Below, one piece after another: positions 1,651 to 11,115 of a stretch of DNA of 64,000 nucleotides. The notes below the pieces were generated by a model. That model made no database searches. It had not been told where the DNA came from and was given only the letters and a program-made list of their open reading frames with translations. Made by a program: the position numbers and the translations under genes. This DNA is from Hyphococcus sp. (lineage in GTDB: Bacteria > Pseudomonadota > Alphaproteobacteria > Caulobacterales > Parvularculaceae): contig JAJFGF010000010.1 in NCBI GenBank assembly GCA_021776245.1, forward strand, positions 1-64,000. The letters are read 5' to 3'. Positions within the stretch are counted from its first letter, which is position 1. The number at the start of each line of letters is the position of its first letter.

Positions 1651-3027
1651 TTATGACCAATTTGGCATTCTGGATTCTCGCAATTCATTTTCAAAAAATG
1701 ACTTGAAGTCAATGACATTTTCGTGCCGGCTGTATTCCGTAATCTTCGGTTTGCTGGGACCTGCTTTTTTAAATGATTCCGGTACCACAAGCATTATCCC
1801 AAGAGACGCCATATCCTCTATAGCATTTGCTGCAATGTTTTCATCGACTGTTGCAAGGAAAAGATCGCGTTCACCCATCTCTCGCTGAACCTGCTTCCAA
1901 CGTTCACGCAGTGTCGTTTTTGCGCTGAGAATAAGCCCCTTTGCTTTGCCGTCATTGCATTCCGTGAGCCAGGTGAGCGAAGGAAGAACGAAATCTGGTC
2001 GTTTTCGCGCTTCAATTATCACCTGTTTTTCGAACGGTATTTTTCCATCAGCAAGCATGGATTCGATGTGATGTTCAAACGAAAGGCCGGCCCGAGATTT
2101 TCGTTGCTGGCTTGCAGATAACATCATGCGATCAATTTCTGGTAGATTCTCGACCAGCGATGCAATAATCGATTTGCTCTCCATTTTATTTGGCCTGTCG
2201 CTCAAAACAAGACGGACGATTGCAATTGCCTTTTGCCGGGCCTGATATGAACGGAACATACTCCATTCAATCGAACGGCTGATTTCGCGCACGTTGTCGC
2301 CTGGTGCTGTGAGCTCAAACGGGTTGAGATTTGTTCGCCCGTGAGTTTTGCAAAACTCACCTCTCGCCATTTTCGCCAATTCGATTGGCGCAGGCATCGC
2401 CCCCTGCTTTTTGGCAAAATCCGCAATATTTCCTTTCAGCCATGCATCCAGCAGTTGGTCTGCAAAGGTCAGTACCCTGTCATGGTTGCGAGTTTTATGA
2501 TCTACAGGGTTTCGGATATCGCATAAGAAATCCGCTTCGAGATCAAGGGCTTCGACCAAAATATCAGCTTCGTCGGAGGCTGAATCGATCGTAAGGCAAA
2601 CATACCCGCCCTCAGGCCTGTTACTTTTCGGAGACATAACGAGAAACGAAGCCGGTGATAAATGCGCGAATGCCTCTTTCGGTAGCGCGGTCATATGGGT
2701 TTCGGGGCCCTTGCTCGTATAGTGCACAAGGCGCGTTGTTTTCTCTTCGCCGTATTGGGGCCAGTAGGTTGGAAAAAAAATTTCGCGAATCTCTGGAGCA
2801 CCAGTTTTTCGGCCCTGATTGTTTTTTAGTGGAGGAAAGAAACCGCTGTCTCGTTGCGTGGGCGGCATGTAAACGCCTGCTTGGTGTTTGTTCGTAAATT
2901 GTGCCCAGTCACGATCATTGTTTGAAAGCTTTTTTACGAGCGTTGATCGTCCGCAATTTAGCAATTCAACGAGCTGGCGCGCGGCACATTCGTCTTCGGT
3001 GCCTGCTATGTCGAAAGGCTTTCCCAC
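1651..3027 (-). CDS. EcoRII-like type II restriction endonuclease
   Basis: This protein is predicted to cleave DNA at a CCWGG-type site, given its partner Dcm and Vsr proteins. The C-terminal third carries the EcoRII/NgoMIV-type PD-(E/D)XK signature: RPDF near 343-346, then SAKTTLRERW near 368-377 with the catalytic Lys, followed by a conserved Glu. The N-terminal part would be the effector DNA-binding domain of a type IIE enzyme. An upstream ATG at 3087 would add 20 residues inside vsr. I prefer the GTG at 3027 because GGGAG sits nine bases ahead and the vsr TAG overlaps this GTG, indicating coupling. At 458 residues it is somewhat longer than EcoRII (about 404). The segment is poorer in GC than the core genes, consistent with transfer. 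Confidence 0.88.
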   Translation of the reverse strand: MGKPFDIAGTEDECAARQLVELLNCGRSTLVKKLSNNDRDWAQFTNKHQAGVYMPPTQRDSGFFPPLKNNQGRKTGAPEIREIFFPTYWPQYGEEKTTRLVHYTSKGPETHMTALPKEAFAHLSPASFLVMSPKSNRPEGGYVCLTIDSASDEADILVEALDLEADFLCDIRNPVDHKTRNHDRVLTFADQLLDAWLKGNIADFAKKQGAMPAPIELAKMARGEFCKTHGRTNLNPFELTAPGDNVREISRSIEWSMFRSYQARQKAIAIVRLVLSDRPNKMESKSIIASLVENLPEIDRMMLSASQQRKSRAGLSFEHHIESMLADGKIPFEKQVIIEARKRPDFVLPSLTWLTECNDGKAKGLILSAKTTLRERWKQVQREMGERDLFLATVDENIAANAIEDMASLGIMLVVPESFKKAGPSKPKITEYSRHENVIDFKSFFENELRESRMPNWS

Positions 3028-3497
3028 TAGGAGATTCTCCCGGGCTCGCCGGCAATTTCTCCAGACATTTTTTCGCCAGTGAGCCACTCGGACACATTAT
3101 TTGTGAGCGTACAAAGATTCATTTTCTCTTTTCCTTTTAATGCACACTCCCAAACTGTTAGGGTACGCCACCCTAAATCCTGAAGAGTCGACTGGTTCTT
3201 GCAATCACGTTCAACGTTTCCAGTTAGTTTTTGGTGCCAGAATTCCGCTCGCGTTTTTGGCCACTTGAAAAGATGACAATTATGTTGGTGCCAAAAACAT
3301 CCGTGCACAAATATCACCGCGTGGAATTTTGGCAATACCAGATCAGGTTTTCCAGGCAGCCGTTTGTCGTTCAGTCGATACCGAAATCCGCGCGCAAACA
3401 GCCCTTTTCTGAGCGCTAATTCCGGTTGCGTATCTTTTGACCGGATGCCTGACATCATTCTGCTTCGGACATCAGGTGCTACTACGTCTGTCATCAA
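3027..3497 (-). CDS. vsr: Very short patch repair endonuclease Vsr
   Basis: This 156-residue protein nicks DNA next to T:G mismatches created when 5-methylcytosine deaminates in Dcm sites, and so starts very short patch repair. Visible hallmarks are the N-terminal RSRMMSGIRSKDTQPE block, GKPDLVLP with the metal-binding Asp near residue 52, and the FVHGCFWHQHNC segment that contains catalytic and zinc-binding residues. Its ATG overlaps the dcm stop codon (ATGA) and its stop overlaps the restriction gene start, so all three genes are translationally coupled in the order dcm-vsr-R. Confidence 0.95.
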   Translation of the reverse strand: MMTDVVAPDVRSRMMSGIRSKDTQPELALRKGLFARGFRYRLNDKRLPGKPDLVLPKFHAVIFVHGCFWHQHNCHLFKWPKTRAEFWHQKLTGNVERDCKNQSTLQDLGWRTLTVWECALKGKEKMNLCTLTNNVSEWLTGEKMSGEIAGEPGRIS

Positions 3498-4729
3498 CCA
3501 GCTTTTCGAAGGTCGAGTTTTTCGCGATTGGATATCAACGCATTGAAGAGCGTGGGCTTAATGTATTCTGCGATGGCTTCCACCACAGGCACGACTACAG
3601 CATTTCCAAATTGCTTGTAGGCCTGAGTATCGGAAACCGGAATCTTCCAGCTACGTGCGCCGAATTCAAAGCCCATCAGGCGAGCGCATTCTGTTGGCGT
3701 AAGACGGCGGGGGCGCCGATGCTTTTGTGCAATAAGAATTTCAGAGCCATCCTTGAAATACCGCGCCGAAAGCGTGCGTGCTACATCATCAGGGCCGCAA
3801 AGCCCGTAGCCAAATCCGTTTCCTTGCGCCTCGTGTTTTGCTCGATAGGCCTGCAAATACTCCCACAGACGCGGTGTAAGTGTGTATTTAGTATCGATTT
3901 CGTTGTGTCCCTGCAGGATGTCGCCAAGAACCGGCCAATCCTTCTCTGGCGGAATCATCCTGTTAAAATCGTCAAAATCAAAACCGGCATCTTCTCTAAA
4001 CCCGACGATAAAGATTCGTTCTCGCTTTTGCGGCACCCAGGGTTTTGATGAAACGACGCGCCAGTCGATAGTATATCCGAGCTCGTTCTCAAGCGTTTGG
4101 CGAATAACTTCGAAGGTCTTTCCCTTGTCATGACGCGCAAGGTTCTTGACATTTTCGAGAACAAAAGCTGTCGGCCGATGATGCGCGATTATCTGTTTGA
4201 TATCGAAAAACAGAGTTCCCTGTGTCTTGTCCTCGAAACCGTGAGGGCGACCAAGTGCATTCTTTTTTGATACGCCGGCGATTGAAAATGGCTGACAGGG
4301 GAAACCGGCGAGCAATACATCATGGACCGGAATCATCGACGGGTCCTTGCCATACGGACGAATATCACCAGCAAAGACGTGTCCATCTTCAGCGGGGAAA
4401 TTTGCCTCATATGTCTGCCGCGAATACTTGTCCCACTCGCTGGTAAAGACGCATCGACCGCCGATCTTTTCAAAGCCTAGGCGCAATCCGCCGATGCCGG
4501 CAAAGAGATCTATAAATGAAAACTTGGAGTGCCCACGCAATGGAAGCGTCGGTCGCATCTCCGCCTCAATATGAAGAATTCGCAATGTCGAAGCGGGCGG
4601 CTTGCACTCGCCAGACTCGTAACGGCGGACCTGGCGAGTGGTAACGTCCAGATATTCCGCGGTTTCCTGCAGTGTCATGCCGGTCCGTCGGCGCAGGTCC
4701 TGAAAGTCGGACATCTCACATGTTCGCAT
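3494..4729 (-). CDS. dcm: DNA (cytosine-5) methyltransferase with N-terminal HTH (Dcm/M.EcoRII type)
   Basis: This 411-residue C5-cytosine methyltransferase protects the host site against the linked nuclease. Motif I (FIDLFAGIGG) lies near 72-81, the catalytic PCQ of motif IV (GFPCQPFS) near 142-149, ENV of motif VI near 192-194, QKRERIF of motif VIII near 234-240, and FGNAVVVPVV of motif X near the C-terminus. Residues 8-50 form a helix-turn-helix (TLQETAEYLDVTTRQVRRYESG) like those that let M.EcoRII and M.SsoII repress their own genes. The target is inferred to be CCWGG from Vsr and EcoRII linkage. A second possible start (MSDF) lies at 4714. Confidence 0.93.
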   Translation of the reverse strand: MRTCEMSDFQDLRRRTGMTLQETAEYLDVTTRQVRRYESGECKPPASTLRILHIEAEMRPTLPLRGHSKFSFIDLFAGIGGLRLGFEKIGGRCVFTSEWDKYSRQTYEANFPAEDGHVFAGDIRPYGKDPSMIPVHDVLLAGFPCQPFSIAGVSKKNALGRPHGFEDKTQGTLFFDIKQIIAHHRPTAFVLENVKNLARHDKGKTFEVIRQTLENELGYTIDWRVVSSKPWVPQKRERIFIVGFREDAGFDFDDFNRMIPPEKDWPVLGDILQGHNEIDTKYTLTPRLWEYLQAYRAKHEAQGNGFGYGLCGPDDVARTLSARYFKDGSEILIAQKHRRPRRLTPTECARLMGFEFGARSWKIPVSDTQAYKQFGNAVVVPVVEAIAEYIKPTLFNALISNREKLDLRKAG

Positions 4730-4735
4730 TTTGTT

Positions 4736-4770
4736 CTTTTACACCGAGGGTAGCTTTTTGACAACATGTC
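4736..4770 (-). promoter_or_regulatory. Putative dcm promoter with overlapping palindrome
   Basis: Read on the minus strand, TTGTCA (4759-4764) and TAAAAG (4736-4741) are separated by 17 bases. The predicted start point falls at or next to the dcm ATG (4729), so the message would be leaderless or nearly so. The palindrome GACA-ACA-TGTC (4760-4770) covers the -35 box, and its ACATGT core recurs at 4718-4723 just inside dcm. These are plausible autoregulatory sites for the N-terminal HTH of the methyltransferase, but no direct evidence exists here. Confidence 0.4.
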
Positions 4771-4834
4771 CTGATTTGTCCCGCCGTCGAATTCAACTTT
4801 TCCCCAGTCAAAGGCCCGTGTTGGTCAAAGCCAC

Positions 4835-5064
4835 TCACTCCGCCCTTTCATAATGCCGTCGCTCCGGGCGTGCCTTGATCGCCAGCTCCAGGGCTTTTTC
4901 GTTCGCCTTTTCCGCCGCGCAGTAAAGCTGATATTCGCCGGACGCGAGTTGGGCCGGCCAGCCCATCCTTTTGTTACCCACTTTACGCACGCCATAATGG
5001 CCGGCGGCCTGGCGCGTGAAGAACGGGTTGTTCTGTTCGGGCAGGGTGATGTCGCCAACCGCAA
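4835..5064 (-). pseudogene. Truncated 3'-end copy 1 of the 8758-11115 gene
   Basis: Read on the minus strand, this segment encodes the last ~57 codons of the monooxygenase/old-yellow-enzyme fusion gene and ends in the same HYERAE-stop. Relative to the intact gene it lacks exactly 20 codons (the stretch from INTIICDER to ARPHL), so LPEQ joins NNPFFT in frame. Homology stops near 5065, upstream of which there is no more of the gene. Several substitutions are silent or conservative, suggesting a divergent allele rather than a recent duplicate. It has no start codon of its own. Confidence 0.85.
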
Positions 5065-5168
5065 CTATAGAGAAGGGGGCGTTGGGTTGTATTTTTGGTT
5101 TTAGTTTCGTGCTAGTCTCCCGTTGGCAGCTGGATTATTATGTAACTAAAATCAGGGAGCATTCGACA

Positions 5169-5792
5169 ATGGCATTTCAATGTTTAGCCATGGCGCTGCT
5201 TTTCGCGATGTTGGCGGGGTCAGCCGCTGCCGCAGACAGGCTCAGCCGCTCCAGTGATCTCACAGTCAAAGCTTTTCGGGATGTGTGTCTGGAGAGTTTC
5301 GAAACGCCATTGTTTCTATATTCTCATACTCGGGAGTTTGAGGATCGCAAGCTTCGGCGTCAACTCATCAAGCACCCCGATTTTGTCCAATCGGTGAGTA
5401 TGGGCTTCATGTCGTTTTGGACAACAAATGCGCGTGATGTGATACTGGCAGAGCTGGCGGGGCGCAAAGGACAGACGATGAATGGAACTTGCCACATGAA
5501 GGCAAAGGTCAAAGATGCGGATGCATTGCACACCACGATGCTGGCTGAGGCGCTAGGCCATCCGGCAGCGTACAATTCTTTTTATTCCGGGCCCAACATT
5601 TCAGGGGAGGCTAAGCGCGACGTGCTTTGCGTGGAGCACGAAGGCAACGCACAGATGCTGCTGTTGACAGTTGCAAATGAGGGAATCCCGGACCTTAAGT
5701 GGTCCATGCTTTTCGATGCGTTCGAATTGCCCGGAACTTGCGCCGACGCGGTAAAGGATTCTGTTGTAGCCATTCCCAGCCAACCACAATAG
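5169..5792 (+). CDS. Secreted protein of unknown function, four cysteines
   Basis: I do not recognise a family. The 207-residue product begins with a clear Sec signal peptide: a hydrophobic core in residues 5-16 and a likely AAA-AD cleavage near residue 21. The mature part contains four cysteines (40, 108, 154, 191), which could form two disulfides, consistent with a periplasmic location. I chose the ATG at 5169, preceded by GGGAG nine bases upstream; an upstream in-frame start at 5016 would read into the adjacent pseudogene fragment. It is a lone plus-strand gene between 3'-end copies 1 and 2, and so the only cargo of its unit. Confidence 0.65.
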   Translation: MAFQCLAMALLFAMLAGSAAAADRLSRSSDLTVKAFRDVCLESFETPLFLYSHTREFEDRKLRRQLIKHPDFVQSVSMGFMSFWTTNARDVILAELAGRKGQTMNGTCHMKAKVKDADALHTTMLAEALGHPAAYNSFYSGPNISGEAKRDVLCVEHEGNAQMLLLTVANEGIPDLKWSMLFDAFELPGTCADAVKDSVVAIPSQPQ

Positions 5793-5866
5793 TTTAGCAG
5801 GGCAATTCATTTTGCGATCAAGGTAGAAGGAAAGCCCTATAGCGGTTGTGGGCGCTTTGTCCCCCT

Positions 5867-6010
5867 TCACTCAGCCCGCTCATAATGCCGTCGCTCCAGC
5901 CGGGCCTTGATCGCCAGTTCCAGGGCTTTTTCGTTCGCCTTTTCCGCCTCGCGATAAAGCTGATATTCGCCGGAGGTGAGTTGGCCGGGCCAGCCCATCG
6001 CCTTGTTGCC
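5867..6010 (-). pseudogene. Truncated 3'-end copy 2 of the 8758-11115 gene
   Basis: On the minus strand this encodes about 47 codons of the fusion gene's C-terminus through HYERAE-stop, in frame and with only a handful of mismatches to the intact gene by eye. It is the closest of the three copies. Homology ends abruptly at 6010. Four bases further lies the stop codon (6015-6017) of the unrelated HTH gene, so the join sits almost exactly at the cargo gene's 3' end. Confidence 0.88.
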
Positions 6011-6014
6011 GATT

Positions 6015-7040
6015 TCACACAAAGCCCTGCTCTCCCGGAAAGGCGCCGAGTTTTGGTGTTTTCAATCTCGTCATCATCGTGCTCAATATCTGCAACGTGA
6101 ACTCGTTTGTTCGTTCGGAGACGGATTCTGCTTCCAAAATAAGTTCGTTCATCGTTTTTATATCACGTTTATTCGAACTTAAACGCGTCATGAATACAGG
6201 TGTTTCGCGCCAGAACACAAATATGGGGGCTTCAGATTCATTACGTACTGCAATTACACTGTCAGAAAACACCTTTTCGGGATGCCACCGCGGATTTCCC
6301 TGAATCAATCGCCGCTCATTGTCAGGGGTAATTAGCCACATGTTTGCATTATAGTCTTTTGAATTGCGTAAAATATTCGACAATCTTGAAATCGTCGCCT
6401 GACGAGATTCACGCGAACAGTACATGTATTCTACGGCTTCTGGATCAGCAATTTTGCACAGATCCGACTGCATCATTATTCCATTATATGCCAAAGATGC
6501 TCTTTGCGTTCCTTCCTGAAATCGCTTCTGAGCTTTCCCGCCATATTCATTGTACGCTTTTTGCACCTCAACGGATTCATCGTCAGTTAGTGCGAGTACC
6601 CTTGTATTGAACAGCGATTTATGATGCTCCCGCATGAAGACTTCATCTTCCATGGAACACGGCAAGACTCGCGCCCATGATTTGAATTCGCGGGCGCGAT
6701 CTGCAAAACTCTGAAGAAATTGTGGTAAAAGCTCAAGTTGCTTCAGATTAATAAGAGTATTCACATACATTCCTTCGCCTACGCTTTCTGGAGAAGGGAA
6801 ATATCCAATGATGGCATCAACGCTGCACTCTAACTTCTCAGTGAGGTTTTTAATCGCAGTGAACGTCGCCGGCCTATCTCGAACGTTTAGAAACATTTGG
6901 CGAAATGATTGTGGATGTTTTTCCCCAGCCATATTCGCCATTGCAGCCTGTTTCGTGATACCGATTTTCGCCATCTCCGCTCGAAGACGGGGAAGGTCAA
7001 TATACGGCTTTGGCTTCGTGTCTTGCGCAGTTTTATTCAT
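6015..7040 (-). CDS. Protein with N-terminal XRE-like helix-turn-helix, unknown C-terminal domain
   Basis: The first ~80 of 341 residues look like an XRE/Cro-type DNA-binding domain (ITKQAAMANMAGEKHPQSFR, then AIKNLTEKLECSVDAIIGYF). The remaining ~260 residues are soluble, mixed alpha/beta, and I cannot assign them to a family; a ligand- or signal-sensing domain is one possibility. The gene is clearly more AT-rich than its surroundings, suggesting transfer. It runs divergently from a 54-residue gene, and a direct repeat lies in its own leader (7049-7066). Its stop is four bases from copy 2 of the gene fragment. It may be a regulator of the divergent small gene or a solitary defence or prophage-derived regulator; neither is shown. 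Confidence 0.6.
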   Translation of the reverse strand: MNKTAQDTKPKPYIDLPRLRAEMAKIGITKQAAMANMAGEKHPQSFRQMFLNVRDRPATFTAIKNLTEKLECSVDAIIGYFPSPESVGEGMYVNTLINLKQLELLPQFLQSFADRAREFKSWARVLPCSMEDEVFMREHHKSLFNTRVLALTDDESVEVQKAYNEYGGKAQKRFQEGTQRASLAYNGIMMQSDLCKIADPEAVEYMYCSRESRQATISRLSNILRNSKDYNANMWLITPDNERRLIQGNPRWHPEKVFSDSVIAVRNESEAPIFVFWRETPVFMTRLSSNKRDIKTMNELILEAESVSERTNEFTLQILSTMMTRLKTPKLGAFPGEQGFV

Positions 7041-7048
7041 ATATCACC

Positions 7049-7066
7049 AACTTAGAGGAACTTAGA
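7049..7066. promoter_or_regulatory. Direct repeat AACTTAGA x2 in the leader of the HTH gene
   Basis: AACTTAGA occurs at 7049-7056 and again at 7059-7066, ten bases apart (about one helical turn), directly upstream of the HTH gene's ATG (7038-7040). This position suits an autoregulatory operator of the XRE-like protein. Function is inferred from position only. Confidence 0.35.
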
Positions 7067-7216
7067 TCTTAATCACTGTCCGGAAAAGAAGCAAAAACGA
7101 AGCATTAGACAAATTATATGCGCCTCTTTGCTCGTTTCTATTCGAATACTCAATCCGTAAGTTGGAGTTGGGCCAACCTCTGGCTCGAAACTGCAACGAA
7201 GAAAAGGAGACTACAA

Positions 7217-7381
7217 ATGGATAGAAAATTACCGCCCCATGATCAGGGTGAACAGGACCGGGCGAATGGAGAATCATACAATCCGCCGGGACCGGGCTTC
7301 ATTTTTCAGGACGAAGAAGAAGCCAAAGATGTGGAAAGTTACAAGCAGGGATGGCGGAACCACAGAGAACAGACAAAATAG
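7217..7381 (+). CDS. Small acidic hydrophilic protein, unknown function
   Basis: This 54-residue frame begins MDRKLPPHDQGEQ and contains an acidic stretch (QDEEEAKDVE). A strong AGGAG Shine-Dalgarno sits seven bases before the ATG, and a perfect intrinsic terminator follows 23 bases after the stop, which together make a genuine gene likely despite its size. There are no membrane segments or known motifs. It is transcribed away from the HTH gene (start-to-start gap about 180 bp), so the two form a divergent pair resembling regulator-target or toxin-antitoxin layouts. No such function is demonstrated. Confidence 0.55.
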   Translation: MDRKLPPHDQGEQDRANGESYNPPGPGFIFQDEEEAKDVESYKQGWRNHREQTK

Positions 7382-7403
7382 CTGATCTCGATAGAAAAAT
7401 GAG

Positions 7404-7430
7404 GGCCCCGCAATAGCGGGGCCTTTTTTT
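7404..7430 (+). terminator. Rho-independent terminator after the small gene
   Basis: GGCCCCGC-AATA-GCGGGGCC forms a perfect eight-pair stem with a four-base loop, followed by seven T residues. It terminates transcription of the 54-residue gene. Confidence 0.92.
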
Positions 7431-7516
7431 AGCCCTCTTATTGTTCCGAGCTTAAGCGCCCCAGCCTCGCGCAGCTAAGTGCTGCATCGGCCCGTAATTG
7501 GCTTTCCCCCAACCCC

Positions 7517-7640
7517 TCACTCCGCGCGCTCATAATGCCGTCTCTCCGACCGCGCCTCTCTCGCCAGCTCCATAGCTTTTTCGTTCGCCTTTTCCGCCTC
7601 GCGATACAACTGATATTCACCGGAGGCGGGGTTGGGCCGG
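7517..7640 (-). pseudogene. Truncated 3'-end copy 3 of the 8758-11115 gene
   Basis: On the minus strand this covers about 40 codons (ASGEYQLYREAEKANEKAMELA onward, ending HYERAE-stop) of the fusion gene's C-terminus. It is more diverged in nucleotide sequence than copy 2, yet the protein reading remains well conserved. Homology ends at 7640. The very next triplet, 7641-7643, is the TAA of the nucleotidyltransferase-HEPN gene, so the fragment abuts the cargo gene's stop codon directly. Confidence 0.85.
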
Positions 7641-8573
7641 TTATTTCCCCGTCGCGGCTTTCAGCTCTTTCAGCCGTTCTTCGCTGGCGGTTTTGACGAG
7701 GGCGGCGAGGGCTTCGGCGCGGTCGCCGAGCCAGGCGAGTTCTTCTTCGGTGATTTTGTAATGTTTCGAATAGCGCGCTTTCACGTAAGCTTCTTTCAAC
7801 AACTCGAAACTGCGGCGCTGGAAACGGTCTTCGTCCGGCCAGACAGCGCGGAAGCGTTCGTCCTTGGCTTCGACAAACGCGCGAAGTTTTCGGACATTGT
7901 GCGTAGCCGGACTGTAGCCGGTCGTTGTTAGAAGGTAGGCAGTATAGAGGCGTTCAACCGTCTGATGCAGCATAAACGCCGCATCTTTCCAAATACCTTC
8001 CCGCAAGGCGTAGGTGAAGAGTTTTGTGCTGTTCTTCGAAGCTGTGAACCACTCATCAAAATATTCTTTCGCCGTCTCACAGGCTTCTTCGGCGTTTAAC
8101 GGTTTCGGCTGAACGAAGCGGTGGCCCTTCGCCTCATGCAGGGCGATGCCGTCGCGGATGATGTCCGTAAAGAAATACTGCCCCTGCGCCAGCTTGTCGT
8201 TGACCTCGCCCAGCGTATGGGCGATCAGGCCGATGGGCGTTTTGATGCTTTGATCCAGGACGATCTTGTCTTCGGCCTTGTACCAGTATGTCGACATGTC
8301 GGTCAGCTCGTCATAATTGACGACGATCAGTAAATCATAGTCGCTTTGATAGCCTTTCGCGGTCTTGCCCGCTTCATCGACCCAGTCGCCGCGGGCATAG
8401 GAACCGAAAAGCACGATCTTCAAAATCTGCCCCTTAACGATGTGGGGTTTGGTCTTGTTGCCCTTGGCCAGCTCGAACTGCTCGAACAGAATCTCCTTGA
8501 TGCGCGCCAGCTCGCGCTGCTTTTTCTCCGGCAGGTTGCTGATATCTGTTTTCATGAAATTCAATGGCGGCAT
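7641..8573 (-). CDS. Nucleotidyltransferase (MNT)-HEPN fusion protein
   Basis: The N-terminal half of this 310-residue protein carries the minimal nucleotidyltransferase signature GSYARGDW (57-64) followed by DYDLLIVV (78-85) with paired metal-binding aspartates. The C-terminal half (about 150-300) fits a HEPN helical bundle, including MLHQTVERLYTAYLL and a late ARYSKHYKI segment. Stand-alone MNT and HEPN proteins form toxin-antitoxin pairs in which the MNT protein AMPylates the HEPN RNase. This is a one-chain version with unknown partner. The canonical RX4-6H RNase motif is not clearly met (R-YSK-H has three intervening residues). An alternative start is ATG 8555. The location in a hotspot with a restriction system supports a defence or dormancy role. 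Confidence 0.75.
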   Translation of the reverse strand: MPPLNFMKTDISNLPEKKQRELARIKEILFEQFELAKGNKTKPHIVKGQILKIVLFGSYARGDWVDEAGKTAKGYQSDYDLLIVVNYDELTDMSTYWYKAEDKIVLDQSIKTPIGLIAHTLGEVNDKLAQGQYFFTDIIRDGIALHEAKGHRFVQPKPLNAEEACETAKEYFDEWFTASKNSTKLFTYALREGIWKDAAFMLHQTVERLYTAYLLTTTGYSPATHNVRKLRAFVEAKDERFRAVWPDEDRFQRRSFELLKEAYVKARYSKHYKITEEELAWLGDRAEALAALVKTASEERLKELKAATGK

Positions 8574-8675
8574 GGAGGGCTTTCGTCCGGGGCGGTGGGT
8601 GTTGCTTTGAATCTATACTGACCCGGCGGGCGGCGCCAGTTCTATGCGGGAGGCGCAGCTCGAAAATCTCAATGT

Positions 8676-8730
8676 TGTCATTCCGGCGCTGATGTAATCA
8701 GGTTGAACGAATTCGTTCAACGGAATGACA
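8676..8730. repeat. Palindromic element with nested perfect 20-bp palindrome
   Basis: TGTCATTCCG (8676-8685) and CGGAATGACA (8721-8730) are inverted arms. Inside lies the perfect palindrome GTTGAACGAATTCGTTCAAC (8702-8721). There is no T-run, so it is not a standard terminator, although the cruciform could shield the 3' end of the neighbouring message. It lies between the fusion gene's stop and the nucleotidyltransferase-HEPN gene. The outer arms resemble a common extragenic repeat. Confidence 0.7.
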
Positions 8731-8757
8731 AAGGTGTTAAAAGGATAACCTGCCAAC

Positions 8758-11115
8758 TCACTCAGCCCGCTCATAATGCCGTCGCTCCGGCCGGGCCTTG
8801 ATCGCCAGTTCCAGGGCTTTTTCGTTCGCCTTTTCCGCCTCGCGGTAAAGCTGATATTCGCCGGAGGCGAGTTGGGGTGGCCAGCCCATCGCCTTGTTGC
8901 CAACTTTACGCACGCCATAATGGCCGGCGGCCCGGCGCGTGAAAAACGGATTGTTCAAATGCGGGCGGGCGAGCGCACATAAATCCGCGCGTTCATCGCA
9001 GATGATCGTGTTGATCTGTTCGGGCAGGGTGATGTCGCCAACGGCTATCGTTGGAATACCGACATTCTGTTTCACAAATTCCGCGAAAGGCGTTTGCCAC
9101 ATGCGTCCGAAGACCGGCTTTTGCCATTTGACGGTTTCGCCGCTTGAGGTGTGAATGATATCGACGCCGGCGTCCTTGAAACTTTGCGCGATGGTTTTTA
9201 GATCATCCAGCGTCAGCCCTCCATCGGCCCAGTCGCTTGACGACAGACGCACCGACATCGGTTTTTCTTTTGGCCATATCTCGCGCAGCGCATTAAAAAT
9301 TTCCAATGGAAATTTCACGCGATTTTCAACAGCGCCGCCATAATCATCCTTACGCTGATTGGTGAGCGGCGACAGGAAACTCGCGAGCAGATATCCGTGG
9401 GCGCAGTGAAGCTCGAGCATGTCGAAACCGGAGCGGTCGCCACGCTTTGCCGCGGCGACAAAGCTCTCGCGCACCTCGTCCATCTGCGCCCGGGTCATTT
9501 CGGCGGGCGCCGCCGAAACCCCGTCAATATAAGGAATGGGCGAGGCGGAAATGAGCGGCCAGTTGCCGGTGTCCATGGGCATATCCATGCCCAGTTCGGG
9601 CACCTTGGTCGATCCCTTGCGGCCCGCATGGCCCAGTTGAAGGGCAATTTTTGTCTCCGTCGTTTCGTGAATGAAATCGATCACGCGGCGCCATTGATTT
9701 TCCTGGGCGTTGCTCCAAAGCCCGGTGCAGCCTTTGGTAATGCGCGCATCGGGCGTGGGGCAGGTCATTTCCGTGACAATCAGCCCGACGCCGCCAATCG
9801 CCCGGGCCGTATAATGGGTGAAATGCCAGTCGGTAAGATCGCCATCCACCGCGCAATATTGCGCCATGGGCGCCATGACCACGCGGTTTGCCAGGTCCGT
9901 GTCGCGCAAGCTGAACGGCGTAAACATCGGCGTTGGTTTATTCGCCGCGACATCGCGTCCGGTTTGGGTTTTATAGCGGGCGTAAAATTCTTCTTCGGCT
10001 TTCTCCAAGAAATCCGCGTCGCGCAGTTTCAGATTATCCCAGGTGACTGACTTGCCGCGCGACATCACGGAAAAGGCAAAGGCGTATGTTTCTTTTTGCC
10101 AGTGGATCGGCATGTTTTCGAACCAGCGCAAGGAAACTTCCGCATTGTGCTGGGTGATCTCAACCGGCGTTCTGCGGGCTTTTTCGTAAGCAGCGAAAAT
10201 CTTTTCAATGTCTTGCCCGTGTTCAACCGTCGCGTCGGAAAGCGCGATGGCGCATTCCATCGCAAGCTTGGTGCCCGAACCGATCGACCAATGGGCTGTC
10301 GCCTTGTTGTCGCCGAGGAGCACCATGTTCTCATGGCTCCAGCGCGCGCAAGTAATTTTCGGAAAACAGCGCCACAAAGAACGGTTGATGAGAAAGCCGT
10401 GGCCCTCAAGCTCATCTTTGAAAACGCCTTCAAGATATTTGGCGGTTTCTTCTTCGCTCATCTCCTCAAAGCCGCAGGCCGCCCAGCATTCCGGCGTTGT
10501 TTCAACGACCCAGGTCGAGCGCCCTTCTTCATATTGATAGGTGTGGGCGCAAAAATGCCCGTGCTCGGTCTGCTTGAAAAAGAAGGTGAACGCGTCGAGG
10601 GGCCGGGTGGAGCCGAGCCAGGTGAATTTATTGCGCTTTTCCTCTACGTGCACGCCGAATGCAGCGGCGTATTTTGTGCGAATGGCGCTGTTGATGCCGT
10701 CGGCGACAACCACGAGATCGCTCGCCGCGCGCTTTTCTTCAAAAGCCGCATCGTCGATCAAGGTTGAGAAATGCATATTGACGCCGACTGCGTCGCATCG
10801 ATCCTGCAGCATTCTTAACAGCGTCTCGCGGGAACAGCCGGCAAAGCCATTGCCGCCGACAATGGTGCGCTCGCCCTTGTGCTCGATGACAATGTCGGAC
10901 CAATAGGCAAAGTTTTCCTTGATCAGTTCATAGCTCTCGGGGTCGGCGTCGAGAAATTCGTCGAGGGTCTCGTCGGAAAAGACAACGCCGAACCCAAACG
11001 TGTCATCGGCGCGGTTTTGTTCGTAAACATCAATCTCGTAAGCCGGGTTACGCTTCTTGGTGAGCAGCGCATAATAAAGCCCGCCGGGTCCGCCGCCGAT
11101 GACTGAAATTTTCAT
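8758..11115 (-). CDS. Aryl-CoA monooxygenase/reductase fusion (2-aminobenzoyl-CoA or salicylyl-CoA type)
   Basis: This 785-residue fusion joins an FAD aromatic monooxygenase (about 1-380; ISVIGGGPGG dinucleotide motif, LLGDNKATAHWSIGSG FAD block) to an old-yellow-enzyme domain (about 390-750; FTPFSLRD, VMAPMAQYC, QLGHAGRKGS, HCAHGYLLASFLSPLTNQR). This architecture is that of 2-aminobenzoyl-CoA monooxygenase/reductase, which hydroxylates and then dearomatises the CoA-bound ring. Databases often name such fusions salicylyl-CoA 5-hydroxylase, but the single-domain Streptomyces-type hydroxylase lacks the second half. RidA, acyl-CoA dehydrogenase, hydratase and thioesterase genes upstream favour 2-aminobenzoyl-CoA. 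A TTG at 11136 is an alternative start. It is the source of three 3'-end copies further left. Confidence 0.85.
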   Translation of the reverse strand: MKISVIGGGPGGLYYALLTKKRNPAYEIDVYEQNRADDTFGFGVVFSDETLDEFLDADPESYELIKENFAYWSDIVIEHKGERTIVGGNGFAGCSRETLLRMLQDRCDAVGVNMHFSTLIDDAAFEEKRAASDLVVVADGINSAIRTKYAAAFGVHVEEKRNKFTWLGSTRPLDAFTFFFKQTEHGHFCAHTYQYEEGRSTWVVETTPECWAACGFEEMSEEETAKYLEGVFKDELEGHGFLINRSLWRCFPKITCARWSHENMVLLGDNKATAHWSIGSGTKLAMECAIALSDATVEHGQDIEKIFAAYEKARRTPVEITQHNAEVSLRWFENMPIHWQKETYAFAFSVMSRGKSVTWDNLKLRDADFLEKAEEEFYARYKTQTGRDVAANKPTPMFTPFSLRDTDLANRVVMAPMAQYCAVDGDLTDWHFTHYTARAIGGVGLIVTEMTCPTPDARITKGCTGLWSNAQENQWRRVIDFIHETTETKIALQLGHAGRKGSTKVPELGMDMPMDTGNWPLISASPIPYIDGVSAAPAEMTRAQMDEVRESFVAAAKRGDRSGFDMLELHCAHGYLLASFLSPLTNQRKDDYGGAVENRVKFPLEIFNALREIWPKEKPMSVRLSSSDWADGGLTLDDLKTIAQSFKDAGVDIIHTSSGETVKWQKPVFGRMWQTPFAEFVKQNVGIPTIAVGDITLPEQINTIICDERADLCALARPHLNNPFFTRRAAGHYGVRKVGNKAMGWPPQLASGEYQLYREAEKANEKALELAIKARPERRHYERAE

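Follow-up and report, generated by a model that had tools for sequence, protein, structure and literature searches.

The window analyzed here, a stretch of 64,000 nucleotides from a Hyphococcus sp. genome (GCA_021776245.1, contig JAJFGF010000010.1), carries an intact gene for a predicted flavin adenine dinucleotide (FAD) monooxygenase/OYE fusion protein, and behind the 3′ end of this host gene unrelated gene sets are split from one another by truncated copies of the gene's own tail. The same layout occurs at other loci, for one of which we found an empty site. As the best explanation, and one we consider reasonably probable, we propose serial displacement of the resident tail through homology-guided recombination at the 3′ end of the gene. 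A preliminary description of the sequence had likewise seen serial insertions concentrated at the 3′ end of one gene and had suggested homology-assisted capture. The comparisons below support such a hotspot, and capture through homology remains the mechanism that fits best, with help from the empty site at what we call locus D. Contig C76, whose first 64 kb form the window, is 116 kb long and belongs to a genome of 4.14 Mb in 76 contigs, designated G000; its closest relative, a Marinicaulis metagenome-assembled genome (MAG), is designated G021.

The host gene (8758-11115, minus strand, 785 aa) matches the profile of the salicylyl-CoA 5-hydroxylase/oxidoreductase PRK08255 with 1001 bits, under the model cut-off of 1078, and also matches Oxidored_FMN; its 3′ end is the landing site. 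Three truncated tails lie downstream on the same strand, all ending in HYERAE-stop and with unrelated cargo between them, as the preliminary description had reported. Copy 1 (4835-5064) consists of a main block at 4835-5033 (199 nt, 90.5% nucleotide identity to the host-gene tail, E 6e-76) holding 66 contiguous codons, and a 45-nt block at 5018-5062 that overlaps the main block by 16 nt and extends the match upstream across a 60-nt deletion. Copy 2 (5867-6021, 155 nt) retains the last 51 codons at 93.5% identity (E 2e-64), and copy 3 (7517-7636, 120 nt), with a single-base gap close to its 5′ edge, the last 40 codons at 85.8% (E 1e-34). These E-values exclude chance. The length of 40-57 codons originally given for the copies therefore holds for copies 2 and 3, and copy 1 exceeds it. 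When the last 321 nt of the gene were compared as DNA with all contigs of the genome, five matches were returned, all on the window's contig, from 4833 to 9060.

The two borders of the copies behave differently. Homology among them stops 0-4 nt past the stop codon. From there, each of the six copies compared (the window's own gene, its three relics, and the intact gene and relic of G021) continues into a sequence of its own, as it should if the shared coding stretch directly adjoins DNA without homology. In the window the 5′ edges lie at about -290 (with the 60-nt deletion), -155 and -120 nt, and that of the G021 relic at about -590 nt; this variation supports the earlier statement that crossover points differ between copies. 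The four tail copies in the window, the intact one included, mutually differ by 6-17%.

In the mechanism we favor, the 3′ end of the host gene would have been used repeatedly as a homology anchor. DNA from related cells, delivered perhaps by natural transformation or transduction, would bring a gene end together with the donor's downstream genes and recombine within the last few hundred bases of the resident gene. One side would be joined via homology and the other at an ill-matched point in the resident tail (homology-facilitated illegitimate recombination), or a circular molecule could have entered by a single crossover. The gene would stay whole with an incoming tail, the new cargo would follow its stop, and the old tail would become a truncated relic before the older cargo; repeats of the process would produce the order gene, cargo, relic, cargo, relic. 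Insertion would be tolerated because the site is a gap between genes that end towards each other, where no promoter or reading frame would be lost; in the 15 other relatives examined, out of 19, the neighbor beyond the host gene's 3′ end is convergent in 13, divergent in one and not called in one. Relics would decay afterwards, with occasional gene conversion. Displacement of this kind allows either origin of the tails, foreign or own. A ComEC-type gene is present in the genome, which proves nothing on competence.

Locus D, the most informative of the further cases, offers an occupied and an empty site side by side. The empty site in G000 consists of the orthologous gene, 10 nt, a convergent citrate-synthase-like gene and a glutamyl-tRNA-synthetase-like gene (names assigned by eye). 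In G021 the same neighbors lie 8.8 kb apart, and the gap holds an ABC-transporter-like pair (by eye), a 75-nt tail relic, two unknown genes, an MNT-HEPN gene and further genes. Among 70 comparable sites, seven distinguish the two G021 tails; at these, G000 matches the relic five times, the intact tail once and neither once. The relic is identical to the empty site at 62/70 positions, the intact tail at 58/70. If the relic were a decaying duplicate, it should be the more distant of the two, yet it is the nearer, which suggests that it is probably the former resident tail and that the intact gene bears a new one, with seven sites and one outgroup amounting to evidence and not proof. Also in G021, a 370-aa gene lies 5′ of the host gene of this locus (L125 394-1506) and is absent at the G000 site, a second insertion at the other end.

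At the focal gene, extra tails are confined to few genomes. When the last 213 residues of the host gene were searched in the genus (28 genomes), its tail was found at 73% identity or more in 16 (counted from the match table); extra truncated tails are present in two of these, G000 and G021, and in none of the other 14. In a second collection of 51 loci, an extra tail appeared in one, again that of G021. This relic, f21, comprises the last 207 residues and lies 1.7 kb behind the intact gene, with cargo unlike that of the window. Between gene and relic, within this defense-type locus, is a two-gene unit (L036 8147-9776; 149 and 402 aa) that matched no family. Past f21 come a CBASS set (DncV-like cyclase, E2-like protein and patatin phospholipase) and then a pair encoding a helix-turn-helix (HTH) protein and an IrrE-like peptidase. 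We found no cargo family common to both genomes at the host-gene locus among open reading frames (ORFs) of at least 90 aa.

The two parts of f21 seem to have different histories. Its 5′ part is heavily altered, with 63 relic-side changes spread over codon positions 1, 2 and 3 as 23/16/24 (p 0.40). The 3′ part, in contrast, has kept 90-95% identity to the intact gene, and its relic-side changes are distributed as 5/1/10 (p 0.022). Compared in this way, the decayed 5′ part and the well-kept 3′ part point to a later exchange of the 3′ part, either between tail copies or with incoming DNA. As side observations, f21 (L036 7543-8175) is open for 205 codons, unusually long for a relic, although in its 5′ third identity to each of four intact alleles is no more than 48-65%.

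To look for the layout elsewhere, we scanned 846 kb of G000, 884 kb of G021 and 400 kb of a further genome, G004, for same-strand gene tails repeated downstream and for low-copy direct repeats (pairs of 45-900 nt, 0.3-15 kb apart). Several of the scanned stretches had been picked for carrying MNT-HEPN or the focal gene, so the pair counts are not rates. The lists hold 23 repeat pairs in G000, 12 in G021 and one in G004, some of them paralogous genes; 6 of the 23 are the window's own tail copies counted pairwise, and 14 lie on contig C2, which was chosen for its MNT-HEPN copy. Three cases on C2 are of note. In case A, a 109-nt repeat (95%) of a TonB-receptor-like gene (by eye) surrounds a small GIY-YIG-like gene (by eye). 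In case B, the tail of a 232-aa gene plus 56 nt is repeated 8.6 kb downstream (95%), around cargo that we call mercury-type by eye, without a family search; no empty site emerged for it, the gene occurring in the genus search in G000, G019 and G012 only and not in G021. In case C, a 152-nt repeat (78%) of an ArsR-like gene (by eye) surrounds 8 kb.

Across the listed pairs, repeats fall at gene 3′ ends more often than at 5′ ends (10 versus 2, p 0.019; 8 versus 2, p 0.055, once the two loci behind the scan are set aside). Paralogous clusters, repeats within genes and pairs in which neither copy contains an ORF end were excluded by eye, and this excess, based on mechanical ORF calls and manual reading of the tables, is no more than suggestive. 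We do not claim a genome-wide enrichment of tail scars, given the bias in the choice of C2 and the rarity of the signature in stretches chosen without regard to MNT-HEPN or the focal gene.

Whether the relics in the window are foreign alleles or decayed tails was addressed on trimmed stretches of 183, 138 and 96 nt (copies 1, 2 and 3; final five codons excluded), with 11 comparison tails for polarity. The preliminary description had read the copies as foreign alleles that keep the protein reading. Part of the evidence is on that side: the 39 differences between copies and intact gene fall at codon positions 13/6/20 when pooled (p 0.023 against equal), a third-position excess that comes mostly from copy 1 (3/3/10) and speaks for a coding history of the relics, and copy 1 retains a Q and an A that are present in other species and lost from the strain's own gene. 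The polarity counts are on the other. Of 32 polarized differences, 24 are fragment-side (7, 7 and 10 in copies 1, 2 and 3; positions 11/5/8, p 0.32) and eight intact-side (4, 2 and 2; positions 2/1/5); the seven ambiguous ones (5, 1 and 1) are all at third positions. From these counts and their codon-position spread, decay would explain most of the divergence of copies 2 and 3, while copy 1 may represent another allele.

In pairwise comparisons of identity, every relic has its best match in the strain's own gene, the outcome that the preliminary description had named as counting against a foreign origin; the nearest sampled species is only 83.5% identical, and unsampled close strains could have been the donors. 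The ending ERRHYERAE is common to the own gene and all its relics and absent from the tails of 17 other species compared; the G021 relic ends in ERRHYQKAE. With the relics nearest their own gene and sharing its ending, the donors, if any, would be close kin outside our sample, or else the relics would be the strain's own former tails, which fits displacement and duplication alike. The foreign-allele reading of the window copies is weakly borne out and was not adopted, in view of the polarity counts; the pooled codon-position counts and copy 1 give it some weight.

Several results weigh against serial displacement. Neither a donor nor a strain-level empty site for the window locus was found in the genomes searched. 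In G021, the two focal tails differ at 31 sites in the last 414 columns; the G000 allele sides with f21 at 14 of these, with the intact tail at 12 and with neither tail at 5. The differing sites fall in runs, as in a mosaic, a pattern that fits later exchange at the tail, and neither tail appears clearly native. A strict order with the nearest relic youngest is not seen in the window either: copy 3, which adjoins the gene, is richest in fragment-side changes (10/96 versus 7/183 in copy 1; Fisher p 0.036, or 0.17 with ambiguous sites included), and insertion at an older relic or uneven decay may account for this. The repeat signature is also rare in the stretches not selected for MNT-HEPN or the focal gene, with no pairs in 320 kb of G000 (C65 and C43), two that we read as non-paralogous in 800 kb of G021 and one in 400 kb of G004. 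Finally, the repeats of cases A and B run 56 nt beyond the stop codon, which would fit target duplication as well.

Insertion with long target duplication is the strongest of the rival explanations, although we regard it as unlikely. Each insertion would copy 100-200 bp of the resident target, and the relics would be duplicates of the gene's own tail that decayed later. Besides cases A and B, this would account for relics nearest their own allele and for fragment-side changes that look neutral, and on C27 of G000 a 370-aa Fic-like gene (by eye) stands alone between 133-nt direct repeats of 94% identity (166964-167089 and 168477-168609). Restriction-modification genes, part of the cargo here, are the type case: in two reports (PMC1643837, PMC3031569), which cite Nobusato et al. 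2000 for H. pylori, restriction-modification and similar genes lie beside long direct repeats of variable length. Unlike the insertions described there, the present ones are serial at one gene, and their diverged repeats end at the stop. If duplications were of random extent, they would not be expected to end at the stop codon in every copy of this locus in two species; the third-position excess of copy 1 is allele-like; and at locus D the empty site resembles the relic more than it does the intact tail. For these reasons, we prefer displacement.

A further possibility, which we consider doubtful, is an integrase-free cassette system in which the gene tail acts as a portable recombination arm, in the role of an attachment site. 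Circles of tail plus cargo would be excised by crossover between tail copies and would re-enter cells of the clade at the same gene by ordinary homologous recombination, so that defense genes would be shuffled as in an integron. Unlike an integron cassette array, the locus has no Phage_integrase match on its contig, and its separators are gene tails.

The relics might alternatively be remnants of site-specific elements that used a tyrosine or serine recombinase, inserted at the gene's 3′ end while restoring the gene and have since lost their integrases, as in stacked cis-mobilizable elements; we think this improbable. A gene 3′ end as target and stacked insertions are typical of site-specific elements, and those that stack at gene 3′ ends (CIME accretion, SCC) keep a short fixed att core. 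The window resembles CIME accretion and SCC in its serial stacking behind a gene 3′ end and differs in that no fixed att core is seen. Such a core would give the relics a common 5′ edge, and the variable edges therefore argue against one; uneven later trimming is possible, and copy 1 shows DNA loss. In line with the earlier remark that no integrase is visible, none of the genome's six Phage_integrase matches (five above the family cut-off) is on the window's contig, in a search that covered the tyrosine type and did not look for serine recombinases, with the island within 5 kb of the contig's left end. We dropped tRNA-linked integration as a candidate, as no tRNA gene was found in the window.

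Two explanations are very improbable. Decayed tandem duplicates with cargo inserted between them later would explain why the copies are all on the same strand and in a row, but every copy is a 3′ piece with its own 5′ edge, and no intact duplicate of the host gene, which the preliminary description had named as a counter-indication, occurs among the 51 loci of relatives. One 5′-partial second copy of the host gene (residues 1-367, 77%) lies at a contig edge in G024 (G024:C181:2-1102), a MAG that is 88% complete with 6% contamination, and is possibly due to strain mixture. An assembly or binning artifact of a possibly metagenome-derived genome would be in keeping with its 76 contigs and with three other MNT-HEPN copies that end within 200 nt of a contig end, but the tail copies with their mutual differences all lie inside one continuous contig, and the separately assembled G021 has the same layout.

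The earlier assertion that no described element has this layout was too strong; the layout is a variant of kinds already in print, namely the orphan 3′ ends of type VI secretion system (T6SS) and Rhs loci and insertion with long target duplication. In T6SS effector-immunity arrays of Vibrio cholerae, sequential displacement leaves strings of 3′ ends and immunity genes; homology-facilitated illegitimate recombination was proposed as the mechanism, and the orphan 3′ regions of Rhs loci were cited likewise (PMC5361080). The likeness is close: a shared upstream gene part anchors the module, the old 3′ end is pushed downstream, repetition of the step yields an array, no integrase is known, and the mechanism is inferred in both cases. 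In those arrays effector 3′ parts differ and the retained cargo is the immunity gene; here the end of a conserved metabolic gene serves as the anchor for cargo that is unrelated to it and partly defense-type.

Recombination at flanking core genes has been described for hotspots in which no mobile element is recognizable (PMC5635113), and core defense hotspots have been reported from P. aeruginosa (PMC10250203). Such hotspots share with the window accessory or defense cargo between core genes, the lack of an evident mobile element and a proposed role for homologous recombination; the route proposed there, with crossovers in both flanks, would be scarless, unlike the present one, in which each step left a truncated tail. 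In another study, 10-18% of variable segments are flanked by repeats in the species studied (PMC2884548). Our literature searches, limited to listings of open-licence papers, turned up no account of a metabolic gene whose truncated tails serially border defense cargo. Tails of this kind record each step legibly: insertion borders are marked by them and, given an empty site, they can show which tail is native. A scan for tail scars is simple and could be run on many genomes, and it bears on how defense hotspots without evident mobile elements arise, a question left open for those of P. aeruginosa (PMC10250203).

Four cargo units follow the host gene, in order of distance from it. Unit 1 (7637-8757, minus strand) consists of a 184-nt spacer and an MNT-HEPN gene (7641-8573, on the host-gene strand; HEPN 2.7e-11, NTP_transf_2) whose stop is 4 nt away from copy 3. 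Unit 2 (6022-7516) holds a 341-aa orphan gene (6015-7040, minus strand) and a 54-aa ORF (7218-7381, plus strand). Copy 2 overlaps the last 7 bases of the 341-aa gene, stop included, and the true C terminus of this gene may have been lost, those bases being part of the tail copy. Unit 3 (5065-5866, plus strand) is a 207-aa gene (5169-5792) that is secreted-looking by eye. Unit 4 (1651-4834, minus strand) is a type II restriction-modification set, identified by family matches, of an EcoRII-C restriction endonuclease (1651-3087), Vsr (3027-3497) and Dcm (3494-4729). GC content is 0.56 in the host gene, 0.58 in the stretch upstream of it, and 0.54, 0.46, 0.52 and 0.49 in units 1-4.

Among the cargo assignments made at the outset, that of restriction-modification (EcoRII-type endonuclease, Vsr and Dcm) and that of MNT-HEPN hold. 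The HTH assignment is not borne out: the 341-aa gene matched neither an HTH nor any other family in Pfam, PADLOC, NCBIfam or PHROGs, and the 207-aa gene, likewise without a match there, is called secreted by eye only. Outside its own genome, the 341-aa gene had no relatives in samples of 299 genomes of the order and 385 of the class, nor in the plasmids, IMG/VR, phages and PDB sequences searched. The host-gene tail, sought on possible vehicles, was absent from IMG/VR, and its matches in plasmids and phages were all below 60% identity, none covering more than 80% of the query.

The MNT-HEPN gene recurs in both genomes. It has seven matches in G000, itself included, the other six being 54-82% identical and located on contigs C2, C5, C8, C27, C31 and C39. 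On two of these contigs, the MNT-HEPN gene is flanked by direct repeats of about 100 nt (80-81%; L124 6603-6703/8291-8391 on C31 and L122 4814-4920/8419-8526 on C2), which are not clearly coding tails. G021 carries four full-length MNT-HEPN copies and two pieces.

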